DNA of 64,000 nt, taken from the IMG/VR virus record IMGVR_UViG_3300007512_000016, positions 36,629 to 100,628 of that record; one strand, given 5' to 3'. Positions 1,429 to 39,727 of this stretch are shown here, piece by piece. Under the pieces are notes generated by a model. The model was not told the origin of the DNA. It made no database searches and saw only the letters and a program-made list of their open reading frames with translations. The translations under genes and the position numbers were made by a program. Source of the DNA: a virus. How positions within the stretch are numbered: the stretch's first letter is position 1; every line of letters begins with the position of its first letter.

Positions 1429-4400
1429 TCACCTCTTCTTTTTCTTGTGGGAGACCATCACCAGCCCCCGATATGGACTCATCCCCCCCGCCCTCGCCTT
1501 ACGGGGATCCATACGCTTCAGGGAACTCCCACCCAGGAGAGCCTTACGGCGTGCTCGGGACAGGGATCCGGGATTCGGGTGCCTGTTCAACGAACCTGGA
1601 CGTGGGCCACCCCCCGTCGCGAGATGCCGACCTTCTCCGATGGACTGAGAGGCCAGCCACACCATCCGAACCACAGCATCCGAGAGGTCATCGTGGTTGT
1701 CCCGCCCAGGAGGAGCCTCTACCACCGTGACATACTTGCTCTTATGCTCCGCCTGGAGAGTCAGCATCTCCGCGATATAAGGGCAGTGCTGCTCAATCCC
1801 ATGCTCATCTACGGGGCGAGGCCAGTCATAGAGGACAACCCTCCGCTCCTGCATCATGTTGTAGAAGTTGCGGTAGATCCGAGAGGACAACGGAGCCGTG
1901 AAGTGCTCCGCCCTGATTTGAGTCAGGCCCCGGTCTTCCAGAGCTTGCTCCAACGGGAGCCCAGCCCACTGGTCAAACATCCCGTTGACGAGGTAGAACC
2001 GCTGACTCAGATCCTTCAACCAATCCGCGACCCACTCCATCCGAAGACGATCCACGTCCGCGTATTGACCCTCTCCTGCCTGGATCGAGTCCACAAAATC
2101 CACGACGACGTTTCGATCTTCGACATGGCCGATAGCGACAGCGGAGGCGTCGCCCACCATCGCGAAGTCGAAGCCCAGGTAATGCGGGAACCGGCTCCGA
2201 CCTCGGAACCTGGGCCTGCGGGCGGGGTCTATGCAGGCAAGAAGGTCGTCCTCGTTCTCAATCCAGCCTCGTGTCCGGTCACTGAAGACCGCCCCGTACT
2301 CCGTGAAGAAGACCCGGACGTCCTTCAGGTAGTGCTTCTCAAACTCATGAGCCGGGATTGTCGGGTTCACCTCCCAGGTGGGAGCCTGAACGCAGATCAT
2401 GTTCTCCGAGGGTCCAGGCTGGAACCCCAGGGTGTACTGATCATAGAACAGCCCGGTCTTACCGAGAGGAGAGCTGATCAGAATAATCCGACCTTCCACC
2501 TCTCCAATCGGGAGCCGCTTATCCGCCGGGTCCTTCGGGGAGTAAGCAGAAGTAGAGGGGGTCACCGCCTGATAGACTTCGTCCGCGCCGGACTGGCCCG
2601 CGTCCGTGAAGTGAGCCACCTCATCCAGAATGACCAGGATATTACCTGCTCCTCGCAGCCCCTTCGCCACGCAAGAGCGGAACGTGATCTTGATGCTGGA
2701 GCGGGCCTTGGGATCGTCCGCGTAGCTCCCATACTGGTCGATATCATACGGCGTCTGGAAGTTCGCGTATGACATGGTGTTGTTCGCCATGTACGGCGAG
2801 AAAAAGTCACAGGACTTGAAGTGCCCGGCGACCTCACGGTACAAGAGCCCCGCCTGATCCTTATCCGTCGCGACGCTGATAAGCTGGATGACGTTGGAGT
2901 GAGGCAGCCCGTAGTACCGGTGAGGGTCCCCCTTCAAAAGCAGCTTGTAGGTCTCATAAGCTGCGATGCAGGCAGATATTGTCGTGTTGTGGTTCGTCAT
3001 CCCATTGGCAACGAACATGGACCCCTGAGGGACATTTAGGTCGTAGACCGCTTCCTCACCCTGCTCAACCGAGACCACAGGGTCGAAAAAATAGTCGAGG
3101 TCGTAAATCTCCTGGAGGTGTTGGACGATTTCCTGGTCAGCCCCCAGCCGCCGAGCTTCTGCCAACGTCTTCTCCAGACGCGGATAGGTCATCTGCTCTG
3201 TCGAGCTGGGCTTGATGGTGTTCCCCATCACCCCCCGCAGGTCAGACCGCGACCACCCTTGTCCCGGCTTACTGGTCGGGACTGAGGCTAACAGCTTTGA
3301 GCCCCATTCACGGAGGTATGGAATGGACTCCGAATTCCCACCCTCTCGACTGGAAGACTTCAGACCCGCCCAGAGAGGCTCCATCTTGCGTCGGGATACG
3401 AATCCCACTCGCTCCGCAAACATCTGCCTATGCCGGAGCCCTCGGACAATGAGGATGTAATAGTTCCGCTCATAGGTCTTATTCCACTTGGCCCGGATTC
3501 GACTCACGATCCCCAGGTTCAGCAAGAGGGTCTGAACCTCATGGGCAAGACGCTCGCTGGCGGAGCAGAAAGAGACCACCTTCCCGTTGGACTCCATCCC
3601 GCCATCAGTCTCAAATAGACCTCGGAGGAAAGCCCGAACGACAGGAGCCGTAGACTGCATGACAGACCAGGGGACCATCTTGGAGCGACGATCTGCGTCG
3701 TAGACCCACCCGAGGTCGTGGAGGAACTGTCGAGCCCCCAAGCTATGAAACTGAATTCTGGTCGTCTTCGGGGAGTGCCCAACACCCTGTTCCTTGAACC
3801 CCCCGAACAGCCTTGTCCACAGGGCCTTCATCTCGACCCGAAACTCTGGGCAAGCCACTGTCAGCTCAACCACCCGGTCCCGAGTCCAAGAGCCATCCCC
3901 CACAAGAGCCCCAAGCAAAAGCCCCCATTCCTCAGTCAGATGTGTCGGGAGAGACAGGTCTTTCCTACCCAGGTCAGACCAGTAGGGGGAAACATCGAGA
4001 TACTCCTGCGGCCACAGGTTTGTCCCTCGATGAATCGCAACGAAATCGCCCTCTTCAACATCCCCCAGGTACTTCCAGACGACAAAGCCTTCCGGGCTCA
4101 TTACTTTGATGCGATGGTTGGGTGTGCCTCCAAGCCTGAATCCACAGTAGGTCTTCAGGTCTCGGATTTCACGAACACCACCGTTATAGAAGTACGCTGA
4201 CTCTGCCGTGGTCTGCCTGCCCTCTTGAGCTACTGTAATCCGACAGGGTTGGTGTTCAGGGCCTTCGGGATCTCCCAAAGACTCGATTGGAAGAACTCCC
4301 TTTGAGGTCAGGACCAGAGACCCGGCTTTCAAGCACTTTCCTGAGCGTCTTCCGACACTTAGGATCATCTCCCTACGTTCATGCCCGGGGACGACCTCTC

Positions 4401-4758
4401 GGACATTGCACCTACCGTCATCGTGGAGGTAGCGGAGATATCCCGCCTCCGTCAGATATTGGTAGTTCTTCCTCTGCCAGTCCGAGATGACGAGTCGATG
4501 CTTGTAGTACCCGTCGTGGTCCAACACCTCCGGGTCATAATGGGGGTGGTCTTCCGGGACCGGGGCGTCTAGCGGATAGTCGAACTCGTTATCGTCCAGA
4601 GCGAGTCCGTAGTGGACCTTGAGGATGACCCGCTGAACGGGGAACAGCTTGAAGTCGAGGCCCCAGGGAGCCTCGATGAACGTGATGATATCAGCGACCT
4701 CACGACCCTGAGTGGTCGTGGTCCTCCCGACATTCCTCGCGAGATCTGCGAGGCTCAC
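1429..4758 (-). CDS. terL: Terminase large subunit (TerL) precursor with an in-frame intein
   Basis: DNA-packaging motor ATPase/nuclease. The precursor is 1109 aa; removing the 450-aa intein leaves about 659 aa, normal for TerL. The ATPase domain has Walker A GRRSGK/TT (split after the Lys by the intein, residues 136-141), Walker B-like NILVILDEVAHF, and the coupling segment RIILISSPLG. The C-terminal RNase-H-like nuclease shows LGFDFAMVGDASA and a later NHDDLSDAVVRM acidic site. Start is GTG, overlapping the upstream stop (GTGA). The tail is basic with a KKKKR end. Splicing must occur before packaging because the P-loop is interrupted. Confidence 0.93.
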   Translation of the reverse strand: MSLADLARNVGRTTTTQGREVADIITFIEAPWGLDFKLFPVQRVILKVHYGLALDDNEFDYPLDAPVPEDHPHYDPEVLDHDGYYKHRLVISDWQRKNYQYLTEAGYLRYLHDDGRCNVREVVPGHERREMILSVGRRSGKCLKAGSLVLTSKGVLPIESLGDPEGPEHQPCRITVAQEGRQTTAESAYFYNGGVREIRDLKTYCGFRLGGTPNHRIKVMSPEGFVVWKYLGDVEEGDFVAIHRGTNLWPQEYLDVSPYWSDLGRKDLSLPTHLTEEWGLLLGALVGDGSWTRDRVVELTVACPEFRVEMKALWTRLFGGFKEQGVGHSPKTTRIQFHSLGARQFLHDLGWVYDADRRSKMVPWSVMQSTAPVVRAFLRGLFETDGGMESNGKVVSFCSASERLAHEVQTLLLNLGIVSRIRAKWNKTYERNYYILIVRGLRHRQMFAERVGFVSRRKMEPLWAGLKSSSREGGNSESIPYLREWGSKLLASVPTSKPGQGWSRSDLRGVMGNTIKPSSTEQMTYPRLEKTLAEARRLGADQEIVQHLQEIYDLDYFFDPVVSVEQGEEAVYDLNVPQGSMFVANGMTNHNTTISACIAAYETYKLLLKGDPHRYYGLPHSNVIQLISVATDKDQAGLLYREVAGHFKSCDFFSPYMANNTMSYANFQTPYDIDQYGSYADDPKARSSIKITFRSCVAKGLRGAGNILVILDEVAHFTDAGQSGADEVYQAVTPSTSAYSPKDPADKRLPIGEVEGRIILISSPLGKTGLFYDQYTLGFQPGPSENMICVQAPTWEVNPTIPAHEFEKHYLKDVRVFFTEYGAVFSDRTRGWIENEDDLLACIDPARRPRFRGRSRFPHYLGFDFAMVGDASAVAIGHVEDRNVVVDFVDSIQAGEGQYADVDRLRMEWVADWLKDLSQRFYLVNGMFDQWAGLPLEQALEDRGLTQIRAEHFTAPLSSRIYRNFYNMMQERRVVLYDWPRPVDEHGIEQHCPYIAEMLTLQAEHKSKYVTVVEAPPGRDNHDDLSDAVVRMVWLASQSIGEGRHLATGGGPRPGSLNRHPNPGSLSRARRKALLGGSSLKRMDPRKARAGGMSPYRGLVMVSHKKKKR
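2986..4335 (-). mobile_element. Intein with LAGLIDADG homing endonuclease, in TerL P-loop
   Basis: 450 residues starting with Cys (CLKAGSLVLTSKG, block A) and ending VANGMTNHN followed by extein Thr. Splicing blocks are visible: TPNHRIKV (block B) and VYDLNVPQGSMFVANG (blocks F/G). The two dodecapeptide motifs are LLLGALVGDGSW and FLRGLFETDGGM, typical of DOD homing endonucleases, with Asp/Glu in both. All splicing residues (Cys1, block B His, His-Asn end, Thr+1) are present, so it is probably active. The insertion point is between Lys and Thr of Walker A. Confidence 0.95.
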
Positions 4759-31632: not shown

Positions 31633-31824
31633 ATGACGCTCACCCCCTTCCCAGGGTTCGCCCTTCCCAGGGACAAGATCCTCGCGGTGGGGTGGAGAGA
31701 GGGACGAATCTTCCTCTCGGTCACGAGCTTCGACCTGGACGAAGAAGAGGGGCTCCCCGACCGAATCCGCGCCGCTTGGAAACGAGGCGGCGGGGAGGTC
31801 TCTTACAAGAGGAGCCCTGTCTAA
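31633..31824 (+). CDS. Small hypothetical protein
   Basis: 63 aa from ATG at 31633, 10 nt after the previous stop, so co-transcribed. It has a Gly-Trp-containing beta segment (DKILAVGWREGRIFLSVTSF) and an acidic turn. Its stop overlaps the stop of the convergent ribonucleotide reductase gene by 4 nt. No family is recognised; coding is supported by the neat spacing. Confidence 0.5.
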   Translation: MTLTPFPGFALPRDKILAVGWREGRIFLSVTSFDLDEEEGLPDRIRAAWKRGGGEVSYKRSPV

Positions 31825-34800
31825 GCCTTGCTGGCCTGCTCCGCCTCCAGGCTCCAATCAACTTCACAGGCCCCCCCTGAGCAAGCTAGCTCCGCCGAGC
31901 CGCCGCCGCGGTCCTCCTTCTCATAGTAGCTCAAGAGGGCGTAGTCGATCTCCGGGAAGTCGTTGACGGCTTCCCGGTACTGACTCGCGGTGACCTCCTC
32001 GTAGGGGGCCAGGGTGTACCTCCCCCCATCATAGGGGAGGAACGAGAGACCGGTGATCTCATCGAAGTGGTCATAGACCCACTGACCGACCTCGGCCCAC
32101 TCCTCTTCCCGGACGTAGATGGTCGCGGACTGGTTGTGCCCTCTCTCAGAGCACCATGTCCTCATGATGTTGAGGTACCGGTCGAGCTGACCCAGGGCAG
32201 TCTCATCCTCCCTGAGGACTGCGTGATCAGGAGCCTTCACCGGGAAACGAGCCACCCAGACGGAAACCTCCTCGTCCGAGAGGTGCTCCTGCCCGTTCTC
32301 CTTGAAGACGGGCACGCCGGAGTCCCGGACGAGGGCGAACAGCGGATCACTGGCGGCGATCCGGACATGCCGGAAGTAGTAGCGGCTGTGACGAGGGTGG
32401 AAACCGCTGGCGCAATCGAGGAGCTGACTGGAATTGCCGCTAGGCTTCCCGCAGGTGATCGCCACCGGGAAGGGGAGATCCATCCACCCGGCTGCCTCTG
32501 CCGCCGTGTCCTGAGCGACGCGGTTGAGGTTCAACATCACCTGCCAGTTCTGGCTCAGAGCCGGGTTGTCGCACTGACCCGTGATATCGACCCCCAGGAG
32601 CCGATCCTGGTTGCAGATCTCCGACCACGCCGGGCGGAGATAGGGGAAGTCCGTGAAGGACGCCTGAATCACACCCAGCCACGTCGCGAGGCGAACCTTC
32701 CTCGCCATCGAGGCTTCAGTATCCCACGGACGCATGACAGCCGCGGTCAGGTTGCACTGGTAAGTCAAGGTATTCCCAAAGACCCCCATGTGCCGCTCGG
32801 GCTCCTCAAAACAGAACGTGTGGTGGAGACCCGGCAGTTCTTCGATGGACCGGATGGTTTGGAACTTCGACTTGAACCGGGGCTTGTGTCCTCTCGACGT
32901 GTCCAAGCGATGACACGGGATGCTGGCACAGTCCGTAATGTCCACGTACCAGAGATCCTTCCTTCGGACACCCAGATTGGTCTCCGTCCCCGCCCTTCCC
33001 AGCAGGCCAATACTCGACCGGATGCCGCACCGAGTCAATAGAAGCTGAACCTTCCGCGCCCGAGCCTCACCACTCAGGTAGAGCCGCACACGACCTGTAT
33101 CGGTGGCGGTTCCATCAGCATCCAGCCACCCTGCCAGGAAGCTGAGAATGTCCTCACGGCACCACTGGAACACGCCGTTAAGGGCTTCCGGGTCGGTCTT
33201 CAGAGCGGAGACCATCTCGGGATCATGGTTGGCACAGAAATAGGAGACCTTCTGCAAAGCCAAATTCCCTGCGTTGGCAACGCGAGGGTTGCCGGCGACC
33301 CCCTGAATGGGCATGACGCTATCCTTCGCCCCAAAAGACTCCGCGTAGGAACCCTCCCAAACGTAACCGGACTTGCGAGTCTTCCGCCTGACAGTCCCGT
33401 CCCCAACAATAGCCCCCATCGTGTAAGCCCAATCAGAGCCTACCGACTGTCCCCCCTCCTGCACGATCTGGAAAGGCTCAGTACGACGAGCAGCCTTGAT
33501 GGGGTTGTCGAGCATCTCGGCTACCGTCATCGCCTTGAACTTTCCCGACCTGACATCCTTGGTTGACACCGAGAAACGATGGTACGCCGTGGTGTCCAGG
33601 TAGGAGCCATCCGACATGTGGACCCGATAGAGCTTCTGCCCGATTCCAGTCTGAAAAGGGCGAACTTCAGACCACCGTTCCCCATTCCAGATTTCCACAG
33701 ATTTGCCTACAACATCCTTGATGTTGTAGAGACCTTGCCGGGTAATGAGCGGAGTGTCCCCGGAGACACAGAAGCTGCCCCCACCACCCTCACCCGTCCA
33801 GGGATCCGTCGCCCTGGAGAACCGGAGGGAAATCTCCGAGCAGTTGTGGACGTAGAGCCCATTGGCATCGAAGGCCCCCAGCTCCGGGACGGTGCAGTCG
33901 TAGACCTTCTCCACGCCCATCGAGGTCATGGACTCGACCCGAACCACGAACCGCTCCCGGTTCGGCTGGCGACGGTACTGACCCAGCAGGTCCACCAGGA
34001 GAGCCGCCTTCGCAGGCTCGGTGAACCCAACCATCGACTCGAACTGGAACAGGTTGTCCTTGGCGATGACCAGCTCATGCATTGCCTTGCACCAGTAGGA
34101 GCCATAGCCTCCCTTGCCATCGGGGAGATTGCGGTAGCCCTCAGGCTGACGCTCCTTGTAGATAGTGGAGACGACACCGAGCCGAAGCAGCATCCGCTGA
34201 GCAGCTTCCAGGGTGTTCAGGTTGGCTTGCCCCAGCCGAACCGAGACACCCTTCTCCTGCGAACCCTGAACCGACCCGTCTGCATCGAACAGCCCCGACA
34301 GGAACCCAGAGATGAAGTCCTCGGTCTCCTGCTCCAACTTCCGGGTGATGGTCTTGGAGGCCGGGACCATCCCATAGGTAGTCTCTGCCATCCCAGCCAG
34401 AGCCGTGCTGGAGACCTGCCAGCACCCGTTGGTCTTGTTCTGGTTGGGCTTGGCGTCAGCTCGGATTCTCAAGCCTGCCGTCTTGACCCGCTCTAACGCC
34501 TGAACAGCCATGTGCTCAGCGTCGTCACCCCAGAAGCGAAGGTGGCCGTGATCGCTCTTGGTCTCGGAGGATTCCACCGTGAAGGTGCCGTCACCCAGCA
34601 AGGAACCCATCAGCCAGCCACGAGCCTTTGCGACCTCGTCCCCAGCCAGCTCGACTGCCCGGTGGTTGTTGAGCCGGATGAGGTCGCCAGCCTCCAGCTC
34701 AGAGGCTTCCACCCACTCGAACCTCTGGACTCGACGGGACTGAACTACCCGACAGACCTTGTGGTTCCCCGTCAGCTCCAGACTGTAGCCTTCCGTCGTC

Positions 34801-35996
34801 GCCAGTCGGAACAGCTCCTTTTCACCCGTGAGCCAGAAGCCACGGTCGCTGGACGAGTAAACCTTGCCGTCCACGATTGCCTCGAAAGGCTGCCCGATGA
34901 GCTGGGAGACTTGCCGAGGCCCGTTGAGGGTGTTGACCCAGGAGCGGACACTGATACAGGGGTTGGTCCGACAGGTGTTCGGCTCCCGAAGCGCCGCCCG
35001 CTTGTGCCAGTTGTCGATCAGGAACCCTCGCTCTCCTGACTTGGAGCGGACCAGGGCAGACCACTCGCCCCAGAAAACTTCTTCAGAAGGCCGATCCAGC
35101 CAGTACGCCGAGTTGTTCGACATGTAGCGGATCGTGGGGAAGTCCCCACGACTCCAGTCCTTCGCGTGCCTCATCTCCTCGTCATCCGGAGAGGAGATGG
35201 AGATGAGAGCCGCTCGGCGGAAGCCGCCGACCATGACGATCTCAGCGATCTGACAACAGATATCGTGGCACTCGATCGGCTTGATCCGCCGGCCGGCGGC
35301 ACCCAGAACCACCTCCTCCGCGAACTCCATCAGCCGACGGAGGGGATCCGGCCCACTGGACCGACCACCCTTGATCTTCAAGACCGACCCCGCGGCCCGA
35401 ATCTGGCTGTAGTCAAAGGCGACCCGGTAGCCCTTCCACCAGTGAGTCATCCCGAAGAACAACGCATCAGCCCAGCCCTCCGTGCTGTCCCCGATCACGT
35501 AAGGGATCGGGTCGCCACCCTTGAGGTCCCCGACCGGGGGGAGGTTGGAGACAAACTCCTTCTCCACGGAGAACCCACACCCGGTCCCGCACATCAGGAC
35601 ATGGAGCAGCTCCGAGAACGCCCGGAGGTTGTCAACCGGGTGGAACGAGCAGTTGTACACGCAGGTGTTGTCCCGGCGTGCTGCCTCACCCGCAGACCAG
35701 AGGGCCCTCATCGAGGGCATGACCTCCATGTCCAAGACCGCCTGCCGACATTCCTGAAGTACCGCCTGAGGGACCTCAGGCCGCTCCTGAGCGAGGAAGT
35801 CGAAGTACCGGGACACGGACTCATCCCAGGTCTCCCGGCGGCCTTCAGCCTCCAACCAGCGGCTATACGTGCGGACGTAGATGAACTCCGACAGGGGGTT
35901 GCGGAAGAACCCCTTGGAAGAGCCTGATTCCGGGTAGGTCAGTGAAGGAGCCGTGATGCTGCTGGAGCGGGAATCAACAGGGAGAACTTCGGGCAT
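31821..35996 (-). CDS. Adenosylcobalamin-dependent (class II) ribonucleotide reductase with two inteins
   Basis: Precursor of about 1391 aa from ATG at 35996 (GAGG upstream; an ATG at 36038 would add 14 aa). Removing 372- and 338-aa inteins leaves ~681 aa, matching monomeric B12-dependent ribonucleoside-triphosphate reductase. Visible parts: GTGCGFSVEKEFVSNLPPV, the active-site NP/CSEI interrupted by intein 1, a GGFRRAALIS segment, DGGRYTLAPYEEVTASQYRE, and a C-terminal redox pair CSGGAC. It makes dNTPs without oxygen or a radical-generating partner but needs B12 from the host. Thioredoxin at 10.2 kb is a possible reductant. Confidence 0.92.
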   Translation of the reverse strand: MPEVLPVDSRSSSITAPSLTYPESGSSKGFFRNPLSEFIYVRTYSRWLEAEGRRETWDESVSRYFDFLAQERPEVPQAVLQECRQAVLDMEVMPSMRALWSAGEAARRDNTCVYNCSFHPVDNLRAFSELLHVLMCGTGCGFSVEKEFVSNLPPVGDLKGGDPIPYVIGDSTEGWADALFFGMTHWWKGYRVAFDYSQIRAAGSVLKIKGGRSSGPDPLRRLMEFAEEVVLGAAGRRIKPIECHDICCQIAEIVMVGGFRRAALISISSPDDEEMRHAKDWSRGDFPTIRYMSNNSAYWLDRPSEEVFWGEWSALVRSKSGERGFLIDNWHKRAALREPNTCRTNPCISVRSWVNTLNGPRQVSQLIGQPFEAIVDGKVYSSSDRGFWLTGEKELFRLATTEGYSLELTGNHKVCRVVQSRRVQRFEWVEASELEAGDLIRLNNHRAVELAGDEVAKARGWLMGSLLGDGTFTVESSETKSDHGHLRFWGDDAEHMAVQALERVKTAGLRIRADAKPNQNKTNGCWQVSSTALAGMAETTYGMVPASKTITRKLEQETEDFISGFLSGLFDADGSVQGSQEKGVSVRLGQANLNTLEAAQRMLLRLGVVSTIYKERQPEGYRNLPDGKGGYGSYWCKAMHELVIAKDNLFQFESMVGFTEPAKAALLVDLLGQYRRQPNRERFVVRVESMTSMGVEKVYDCTVPELGAFDANGLYVHNCSEISLRFSRATDPWTGEGGGGSFCVSGDTPLITRQGLYNIKDVVGKSVEIWNGERWSEVRPFQTGIGQKLYRVHMSDGSYLDTTAYHRFSVSTKDVRSGKFKAMTVAEMLDNPIKAARRTEPFQIVQEGGQSVGSDWAYTMGAIVGDGTVRRKTRKSGYVWEGSYAESFGAKDSVMPIQGVAGNPRVANAGNLALQKVSYFCANHDPEMVSALKTDPEALNGVFQWCREDILSFLAGWLDADGTATDTGRVRLYLSGEARARKVQLLLTRCGIRSSIGLLGRAGTETNLGVRRKDLWYVDITDCASIPCHRLDTSRGHKPRFKSKFQTIRSIEELPGLHHTFCFEEPERHMGVFGNTLTYQCNLTAAVMRPWDTEASMARKVRLATWLGVIQASFTDFPYLRPAWSEICNQDRLLGVDITGQCDNPALSQNWQVMLNLNRVAQDTAAEAAGWMDLPFPVAITCGKPSGNSSQLLDCASGFHPRHSRYYFRHVRIAASDPLFALVRDSGVPVFKENGQEHLSDEEVSVWVARFPVKAPDHAVLREDETALGQLDRYLNIMRTWCSERGHNQSATIYVREEEWAEVGQWVYDHFDEITGLSFLPYDGGRYTLAPYEEVTASQYREAVNDFPEIDYALLSYYEKEDRGGGSAELACSGGACEVDWSLEAEQASKA
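32757..33770 (-). mobile_element. Intein 2 of the ribonucleotide reductase, 24 residues after intein 1
   Basis: 338 residues from CVSGDTPLITRQGLYNIKDV to ERHMGVFGNTLTYQ, followed by CNLTAAV of the host enzyme. Block B is TTAYHRFSV. LAGLIDADG motifs are YTMGAIVGDGTV and FLAGWLDADGTA. It ends in Tyr-Gln instead of His-Asn; terminal Gln is known in some active inteins but the missing penultimate His is unusual. Confidence 0.9.
33843..34958 (-). mobile_element. Intein 1 of the ribonucleotide reductase, in the NPCxE active site
   Basis: 372 residues, from Cys (CISVRSWVNTLNGPRQVSQL) to GAFDANGLYVHN, followed by extein Cys. Block B is LTGNHKVCR. Two LAGLIDADG motifs: WLMGSLLGDGTF and FLSGLFDADGSV. 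All standard splicing residues are present, and the Cys+1 is the catalytic Cys of NPCSE, so the enzyme is inactive until splicing. Confidence 0.95.
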
Positions 35997-36044
35997 CACG
36001 GCGCCTCGGAGGAGGGGGTCCAAAAACGATGACAGCATAGAACC

Positions 36045-38313: not shown

Positions 38314-39046
38314 CCGGGAGGAAGGTGCTCTCAGTCGTCAGGGGTGTCGTTGTTGTAGCTGCTGTCGTTGTAGATGTAGAAGCTGTTGTTGTACTCGTTG
38401 TCGTTGCTGTAGGAGTTGCTGAAGTAGTTGTTGCTGGAGTGGTTGTTAAGCGATCGGTCCTAGCGGACCTCTCTGGGCTCTAGCCTAGGATCTACAGGGT
38501 CTTCTCTCTGACTCCTCTCTCTTTCCTGAGGGGAAGTCCTTCGACGAAGACACCTGGAGCACTTGGCACCCAGGTCAGCTTAGGTGTCCAAGAGATTATC
38601 TCTCCCGCTTTCGGGCGAAAGCTCAGTCAGAGGGAGTTTGACCTCCTCTCCAGCAGTTCAAATCCTGCTAGCCCTACTTCCTGTACGGGAGAACCTCTCG
38701 GTAAGCTGCGAGGTTCGTGAAAACCGGGAGGCCCGCTCTCCGTCCCTCCACAACTTCCTGTGGAGGAGGCAGATCCTCAAAGTTCCGTTGGTTGAGTTTG
38801 GAAAGAGCAAGACGGAGCGGTTCGCCAGTCCTTTTTCTCTCGGGTCTTCCAAGAGTCTCTCTCGCTGGTGGTCTGATACCAGATCGGTTTCCCGACCCCG
38901 GACACCGCTCGGTTACAGAGGGTTGGATCAGGGAGCCAACCTTGAGCCGAGAATTCCCGGGCTTCCCCTGACGGGGAAAAAGAGCCTACCCGTCTTACAG
39001 GGAGGTGCTACCTCGTGTCAAGATAGAAATCTCAGGAGGAGCCACC
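38314..39046 (+). other. Non-coding, structured stretch of about 730 bases
   Basis: No convincing gene is visible; open frames here are Ser/Arg/Leu-rich or Val-rich and start without a ribosome site. The stretch contains a low-complexity tract (38346-38450), competing hairpins around 38551-38589 (GACACCT can pair with AGGTGTC while overlapping ACCTGG pairs with CCAGGT), an AACCTC/GAGGTT hairpin at 38693-38714, a tRNA-3'-end-like segment at 38651-38675, and a GGTTGG...CCAACC hairpin near 38920-38941 nested in CTCGG...CCGAG. It may encode a structured RNA or be a recombination remnant. Confidence 0.5.
38346..38450. repeat. Degenerate GTT/GCT triplet repeat
   Basis: About 35 triplets of the type GTT, GTA, GTC, GCT, GAA in series. 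Plus-frame reading gives a Val/Ala-rich string; one minus frame gives a Thr/Ser/Ala string and another an Asn/Ser/Tyr string, but no minus frame has a start codon before it. It is probably a remnant of a Thr-rich linker or a slippage-generated tract. Confidence 0.6.
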
Positions 39047-39262
39047 GTGGAGATCATTCTCAATGGACGACGGGTCACTATCCAAAAGGACGAGATGACC
39101 TATGAGGAGCTGGTGGCTCTAACCGGACACCCTCAAGGGACCTTGCTCACGATCACCTACCGGAGGGCTCAGGATCCTCCTCAGGGAATCCTGGTACCAA
39201 GGAAGAGGGTGACCCTGAAAGAAGGTGCTGTGGTGAACGCTTCAGACACCAGTAGAGCCTGA
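39047..39262 (+). CDS. Ubiquitin-like protein (single multiubiquitin-type domain)
   Basis: 71 aa from GTG at 39047, fixed by a perfect AGGAGGA seven nt upstream; a GTG at 39005 is in frame but lacks support. The sequence follows the bacterial multiubiquitin-domain pattern: LNGRRVTIQKDEMTYEELVA (strand 1, strand 2, start of helix), LTITYRRAQ (strand 3), GILVPRKRVTLKEGAVVN (strands 4-5). It ends SDTSRA, without the Gly-Gly that would allow conjugation. Chromosomal relatives lie beside E1, E2 and JAB genes; none is visible in this window. It stands alone after the structured region, tail-to-tail with a kinase gene. Confidence 0.75.
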   Translation: MEIILNGRRVTIQKDEMTYEELVALTGHPQGTLLTITYRRAQDPPQGILVPRKRVTLKEGAVVNASDTSRA

Positions 39263-39727
39263 GGGGCTCCTCTCAATGCAGATACTTGTGAACCCCTCCT
39301 GGTAAGAGGGAGGAGAATCACGGAGACTCTCAGCCATCGAGAGGATTTGTTCCTCAGGGACTCTGCGACCCTCGGGCCTGAGGGCGTTTCTCTCCAGGCA
39401 GGTTGAGACCGGAGTGTCTACCCAGATGAGGGAGACCATCACGGGCTTCCTCGTGTCCTGAATCACCTTGAGGGTTGTCGCCCGATGTTGGGGGCGAGCG
39501 AAGGTGGCATCGAAGAACACCTGACCTGGAGCCGGTTCCTTCTGACTGAGGAAGTGGCTCTTTCCTGAGCCGGGGAGGCCCACCATCAGGGTGACTTCTT
39601 GCACTCCTCCGGAGAGGATCACTTGTTGGAGTGTCTGATGAGCCTGAGCCCAGGCAGCCCGAGAGCGATCGGGAGTCCAGACGTAGGCTCCTGCTTCCAT
39701 GAGGAAGGAATCGGGGGAGATGATCAT
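39242..39727 (-). CDS. P-loop kinase, polynucleotide-kinase-like
   Basis: 161 aa from ATG at 39727. Walker A is TLMVGLPGSGKSHFLSQ; a D-x-T segment VFFDATFARPQHRATTLKVI follows; then VSLIWVDTPVSTCLERNALR and a C-terminal lid-like region. This is the zeta-toxin/PNK-type small kinase pattern (T4 Pnk N-domain family). It may phosphorylate 5' ends of nucleic acid or a small substrate. It overlaps the ubiquitin-like gene tail-to-tail by 21 nt. A phage promoter sits directly upstream. Confidence 0.75.
   Translation of the reverse strand: MIISPDSFLMEAGAYVWTPDRSRAAWAQAHQTLQQVILSGGVQEVTLMVGLPGSGKSHFLSQKEPAPGQVFFDATFARPQHRATTLKVIQDTRKPVMVSLIWVDTPVSTCLERNALRPEGRRVPEEQILSMAESLRDSPPSYQEGFTSICIERSPSGSTGV

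Follow-up and report, generated by a model that had tools for sequence, protein, structure and literature searches.

A phage encodes a lone ubiquitin-like protein (Ubl) of the Multi_ubiq family, a family that in bacteria is found next to a ThiF-type conjugation enzyme. The gene lies at positions 39047..39262 on the plus strand of the window, the 64,000-nucleotide stretch of viral DNA analysed here, and its 71-aa product, which ends in TSRA, is supported by profile, predicted fold and codon usage. An earlier note, made from the window alone, had described the gene as encoding a stand-alone ubiquitin-like protein. The gene is real and its kind was correctly named; the accompanying interpretation is partly supported. 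Judged from sequence comparison, what sets the phage gene apart is its detachment from the enzyme and its presence in a phage, not its single domain or its missing C-terminal glycine. We tentatively favour the reading that the lone Ubl is a decoy or competitor for a Bub-like E1/E2 enzyme of the host.

The window belongs to a virus record of 100,628 bases, which shares 89,884 bases, at 99.97% agreement, with a second IMG/VR record 126,159 bases long. The joined span is 136.9 kb with both ends open, so that the full phage genome may be larger. The gene content is that of a phage and includes a terminase, a UvsX-like recombinase, a Dda-like helicase and a ribonucleotide reductase. The nearest terminases are those of the huge phage LR745208.1 (485 kb, 55%) and of several IMG/VR contigs. 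Relatives match the terminase frame (1429-4758) in two separate pieces, which suggests that it contains a large insertion, and the ribonucleotide reductase frame (1405 aa, 31821-36038, minus strand) apparently contains two intein-like insertions. At 38325-38483 on the plus strand, a small frame preceded by a good ribosome-binding sequence encodes 52 aa that are rich in valine and alanine and derive from a GTTGTT-like repeat.

The ubiquitin-like gene opens with GTG at 39047 and closes with a TGA stop ending at 39262. A ribosome-binding sequence read directly from the DNA, AGGAGG at 39034..39039 on the plus strand, stands 7 nt before the start, in agreement with the earlier proposal that AGGAGGA marks it; the alternative in-frame start at 39005, which would extend the product to 85 aa, has no well-spaced ribosome-binding sequence. 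Codon usage of the 71-aa frame is phage-like (+0.098 log-odds per codon, the 17th percentile of phage genes of at least 100 aa), and the other five frames over the same stretch have negative codon scores and two to six stops each. An identical protein is encoded in the second contig and, given that the two contigs are near-identical over their overlap, an artefact of assembly joining is ruled out. We argue from the intact frame, the phage-like codon usage and the good ribosome-binding sequence that the gene has been kept for a function. It is also divergent and isolated, and a simple scan found no promoter-like site at it, as could be the case for a decaying passenger gene without function. 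Yet that origin is improbable in view of the same three signs of maintenance and of the core positions that the protein retains.

Residues 1-62 of the 71 matched the Multi_ubiq profile (PF14452) in hmmscan with 35.7 bits and an E-value of 9.9e-9, above the Pfam gathering cut-off of 24.5 bits, and this is the single match of the profile in the whole contig. AlphaFold2, supplied with an alignment of Multi_ubiq family members, predicted a beta-grasp fold with a mean pLDDT of 84.6 in the best of five models, which together range from 58 to 85. Among solved structures, the best match to the model is the C-terminal ubiquitin-like domain of the E. coli multi-ubiquitin protein 9cd2 (Foldseek E 7.8e-5; VIA-align Z 12.4, rmsd 1.9, 71/71 residues). 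Ubiquitin, NEDD8, ISG15 and BubA(155-229) match less strongly (VIA-align Z 6.5-7.3), with Z 6.8 for BubA(155-229) as found in the BubCD complex 9ea8. PHROGs contains no family for the protein, and phmmer with the single 71-aa sequence against the PDB returned chance matches only. The profile and the predicted fold together firmly indicate a multiubiquitin-type beta-grasp protein; the Pfam search and the structure prediction that had been suggested as checks thus both came out in favour of the earlier identification.

The closest relatives are found on plasmids. Their identity reaches 45% in the alignment, and their operons also encode a DUF6791-ThiF protein and DUF6527. A scan of genome contigs yielded 80 bacterial loci across many phyla, which together with 11 plasmid loci makes 91. 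The DUF6791-ThiF-type enzyme gene stands beside the Ubl in all 91 of these loci, which were found by similarity, and DUF6527 is also present in 88 of them, two of the three exceptions being cut by contig ends. Of 385 genomes of one class sampled with the family profile, 12 have Multi_ubiq; in 11 of these a match to the enzyme profile falls within the short locus, and in the twelfth a stretch resembling ThiF and JAB is seen by eye. No bacterium examined (91 loci and 12 genomes) had a Multi_ubiq gene that lacked a ThiF-type neighbour. In all 80 scanned loci the enzyme gene begins within the Ubl gene, with its ATG exactly 26 nt before the Ubl end, so that the overlapping frame probably accounts for part of the conservation seen at the Ubl C-terminus. 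Several loci also have an ImmA/IrrE peptidase with an HTH protein, or a WYL protein, as neighbours. In a tree of 51 domains the phage protein sits on a long branch beside Alicyclobacillus with modest support, a position that is uninformative for the host.

These loci revise part of the contrast drawn in the earlier note, which had set the phage protein against tandem repeats located next to E1, E2 and JAB genes. The association with a ThiF-type enzyme stood, and the JAB did not, as the usual partners of the closest relatives are a DUF6791-ThiF fusion and DUF6527. Single-domain relatives are the majority (about 58 of the 80 frames are no longer than 150 aa), which removes tandem repeats as a point of difference. 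Nor is the missing C-terminal glycine an anomaly, for no relative examined has one: 79 of 80 end in serine, and one bacterial relative ends in alanine (TDKA). Precedent exists as well, several newly found prokaryotic Ubl families having been described without a C-terminal glycine (Iyer et al. 2006, PMC1779556).

In the phage, neither contig gave a match to ThiF (PF00899), Prok-JAB or Prok-E2_B. Searches of the six frames of the 137 kb with a profile of nine bacterial enzymes (best E 5.7) and with one of nine DUF6527 proteins also found nothing. The claim that no conjugation enzyme is visible therefore held when the proposed search for E1, E2 and JAB genes was run over the two contigs, 137 kb with open ends. 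At 39237..39239 on the plus strand, the site 26 nt from the Ubl end where the overlapping ThiF-type gene has its ATG in 80/80 bacteria, the phage reads ACG. The place where an E1 gene would be expected is taken by a convergent gene for an AAA_33/zeta-toxin-like P-loop kinase (39242..39727, minus strand), which shares 21 nt with the end of the ubiquitin-like gene. On the other side, a gap of 560 nt holds no credible gene, no tRNA in a relaxed search and no Rfam family. The ubiquitin-like gene is thus an orphan within the 137 kb sampled, and an enzyme gene could lie outside. Since the contig ends are open and a phage with a related terminase reaches 485 kb, E1/E2 genes of the phage itself, and thereby a complete conjugation system, might be encoded beyond the sampled part. 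We consider this very improbable, as the bacterial enzyme gene overlaps the Ubl gene, and the 485-kb relative encodes a Multi_ubiq protein yet has no ThiF match.

The phage protein is also an outlier within its family. Of the 19 positions taken as conserved because 85% or more of 50 bacterial domains agree there, it departs at 9, versus 0-4 in the 50 bacterial sequences. The changes include G52R, K56T, F63V and S71A, whereas I3, L25, Y38, G47, L49, V55, K58, G60, N64 and T68 are kept. The C-terminal T-x-x-S of Ubls from Bub-like/NGR234-type operons is accordingly TSRA in the phage. The pattern used in the 80-locus scan covered residues 55-64, and some positions were thereby preselected; since it accepted the residues that the phage has at 56, 61 and 63, the differences there do not stem from the search. 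In bacteria the end of the Ubl gene is shared with the E1 gene, and F63, V65 and S71 fall in or close to this shared stretch, G52R and K56T outside it. A simple explanation for part of the divergence, that at residues 63-71, is thus a possible relaxation of the overlap coding constraint. The positions that are kept, a free carboxyl end of the usual length and the one bacterial relative that likewise ends in alanine would suit a working donor, attached by host E1/E2 to host or phage targets for the benefit of the phage. Such hijacking is nevertheless unlikely, given that K56, G52 and the terminal serine, a nearly invariant residue, are gone and that the phage shows no enzyme.

The same divergence, including that of the C-terminal residue, can be read differently, namely that the beta-grasp domain was co-opted as a binding or scaffold protein in phage biology (replication, host takeover or the virion), unrelated to conjugation. 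Beta-grasp domains often serve as adaptors. The genes nearby are of replication type, with a clamp-loader delta'-like protein in addition to the ribonucleotide reductase, or of no recognised kind, and a Peptidase C39-like protein (PF13529; 46885-47892, minus strand) is encoded about 8 kb away. For a neighbouring gene of 357 aa no homologue was found, and synteny with relatives could therefore not be compared. Against an adaptor, every bacterial Multi_ubiq case looked at is linked to a ThiF enzyme, and the ubiquitin-like gene stands alone on the plus strand among minus-strand genes, opposite to its nearest neighbours, so that no operon partner hints at such a role. Co-option as an adaptor is the main rival of the decoy reading, and we regard it as somewhat doubtful.

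According to the decoy reading, the gene was probably acquired long ago from a multiubiquitin (Bub-like) operon, and the Ubl would then have been separated from the E1-E2 enzyme. The phage Ubl is a homologue of the C-terminal beta-grasp domain, the one engaged by the enzyme, in bacterial multiubiquitin systems. As such, it may occupy the DUF6791-ThiF (E1/E2-like) enzyme of the host, or another Ubl-binding partner there, and would not serve as a normal donor, whereby conjugation harmful to the phage would be blunted. Several observations point this way. The counterpart of the phage Ubl in 9ea8, going by the entry title a complex of BubCD with BubA(155-229), is the domain bound by the enzyme; conserved positions, the terminal serine among them, have been lost, while the phage has kept the gene intact; and in every bacterium examined the family stands beside a ThiF-type enzyme, whereas the phage has none in the 137 kb. 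Furthermore, Bub operons often adjoin regulators that are also found with CBASS immune operons (PMC13373217), and several of the relatives studied here have neighbours of that kind. On the other hand, the changed residues could equally prevent enzyme binding, the changes at F63, V65 and S71 may reflect nothing more than the lost coding constraint, and, with open contig ends and a terminase relative of 485 kb, an enzyme gene could lie outside the sample.

When a phage gene mimics part of some system, this is a classic sign that the two are in conflict. The broader suggestion, that the lone Ubl competes for or jams a host Bub-like E1/E2 as a form of phage counter-defence by ubiquitin mimicry, is possible, and we put it forward with considerable reserve. 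If true, it would be indirect evidence that Bub-like operons act against phages. Protection against phage has not been demonstrated for Bub operons, their anti-phage role being open (PMC13373217), and the 71-aa protein offers a cheap and direct test of it. The finding also indicates where Ubl mimics may be present in phages, the Multi_ubiq domain having been seen here in one other phage only.

That other phage is LR745208.1, whose terminase is the nearest match to that of the present phage in the annotated collection and which is a second large phage with a Multi_ubiq domain. There the domain forms the C-terminal part of a 239-aa coiled-coil protein (about 103,113-103,832, minus strand; L032:1480-2199) and ends in Gly-Gly. 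The domain is of a different subtype and is not recognisable as an orthologue, the 71-aa query giving no match there. Its gene adjoins an R2K ATP-grasp gene and a YspA/SLOG gene, that is, a Ubl with a ligase-type neighbour. Apart from LR745208.1, no relative with a similar terminase was found to have Multi_ubiq. Pattern scans of IMG/VR with the 71-aa protein, a bacterial relative and two family alignments, in which divergent copies can be missed, recovered the sister contig only. A tblastn search of 50,697 phage records returned nothing significant, and among viral predicted structures Foldseek found none that matched below E 0.001. A literature search, short of a full survey, found no paper on phage-encoded ubiquitin-like proteins.

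Among known systems, the tail assembly protein I (TAPI) of lambda and T1 likewise carries a phage-encoded ubiquitin-like beta-grasp domain (PMC1779556). TAPI is described with a conserved C-terminal glycine and adjoining JAB/NlpC tail genes (PMC1779556); unlike it, the protein studied here ends in alanine and has neither a JAB nor a tail neighbourhood. Bub systems were characterised from PMC13373217 and PDB entry titles. The 9cd2 and Citrobacter proteins are multi-domain, and Citrobacter BubA has a BubCD partner, whereas the phage protein has one domain and no partner. The adjoining ThiF E1(-E2), the DUF6527/JAB and the 26-nt overlap that characterise Bub-like/NGR234-type operons are absent from the 137 kb sampled. 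The Multi_ubiq-DUF6791-ThiF-DUF6527 operons, of which the NGR234-megaplasmid-type operon 6c (Iyer et al. 2006, PMC1779556) is likely the prototype, differ from the phage gene in that the latter is alone, lacks the overlapping E1 start, ends in alanine and shows the 9/19 departures. With the Ubls of these operons it nonetheless shares the domain family, the length, the domain end point and a C-terminus without glycine, and among the BubA and multi-ubiquitin proteins compared (9cd2, 9d5a, 9d59, 8u38 and 9ea8) its predicted fold is closest to the C-terminal domain of 9cd2.
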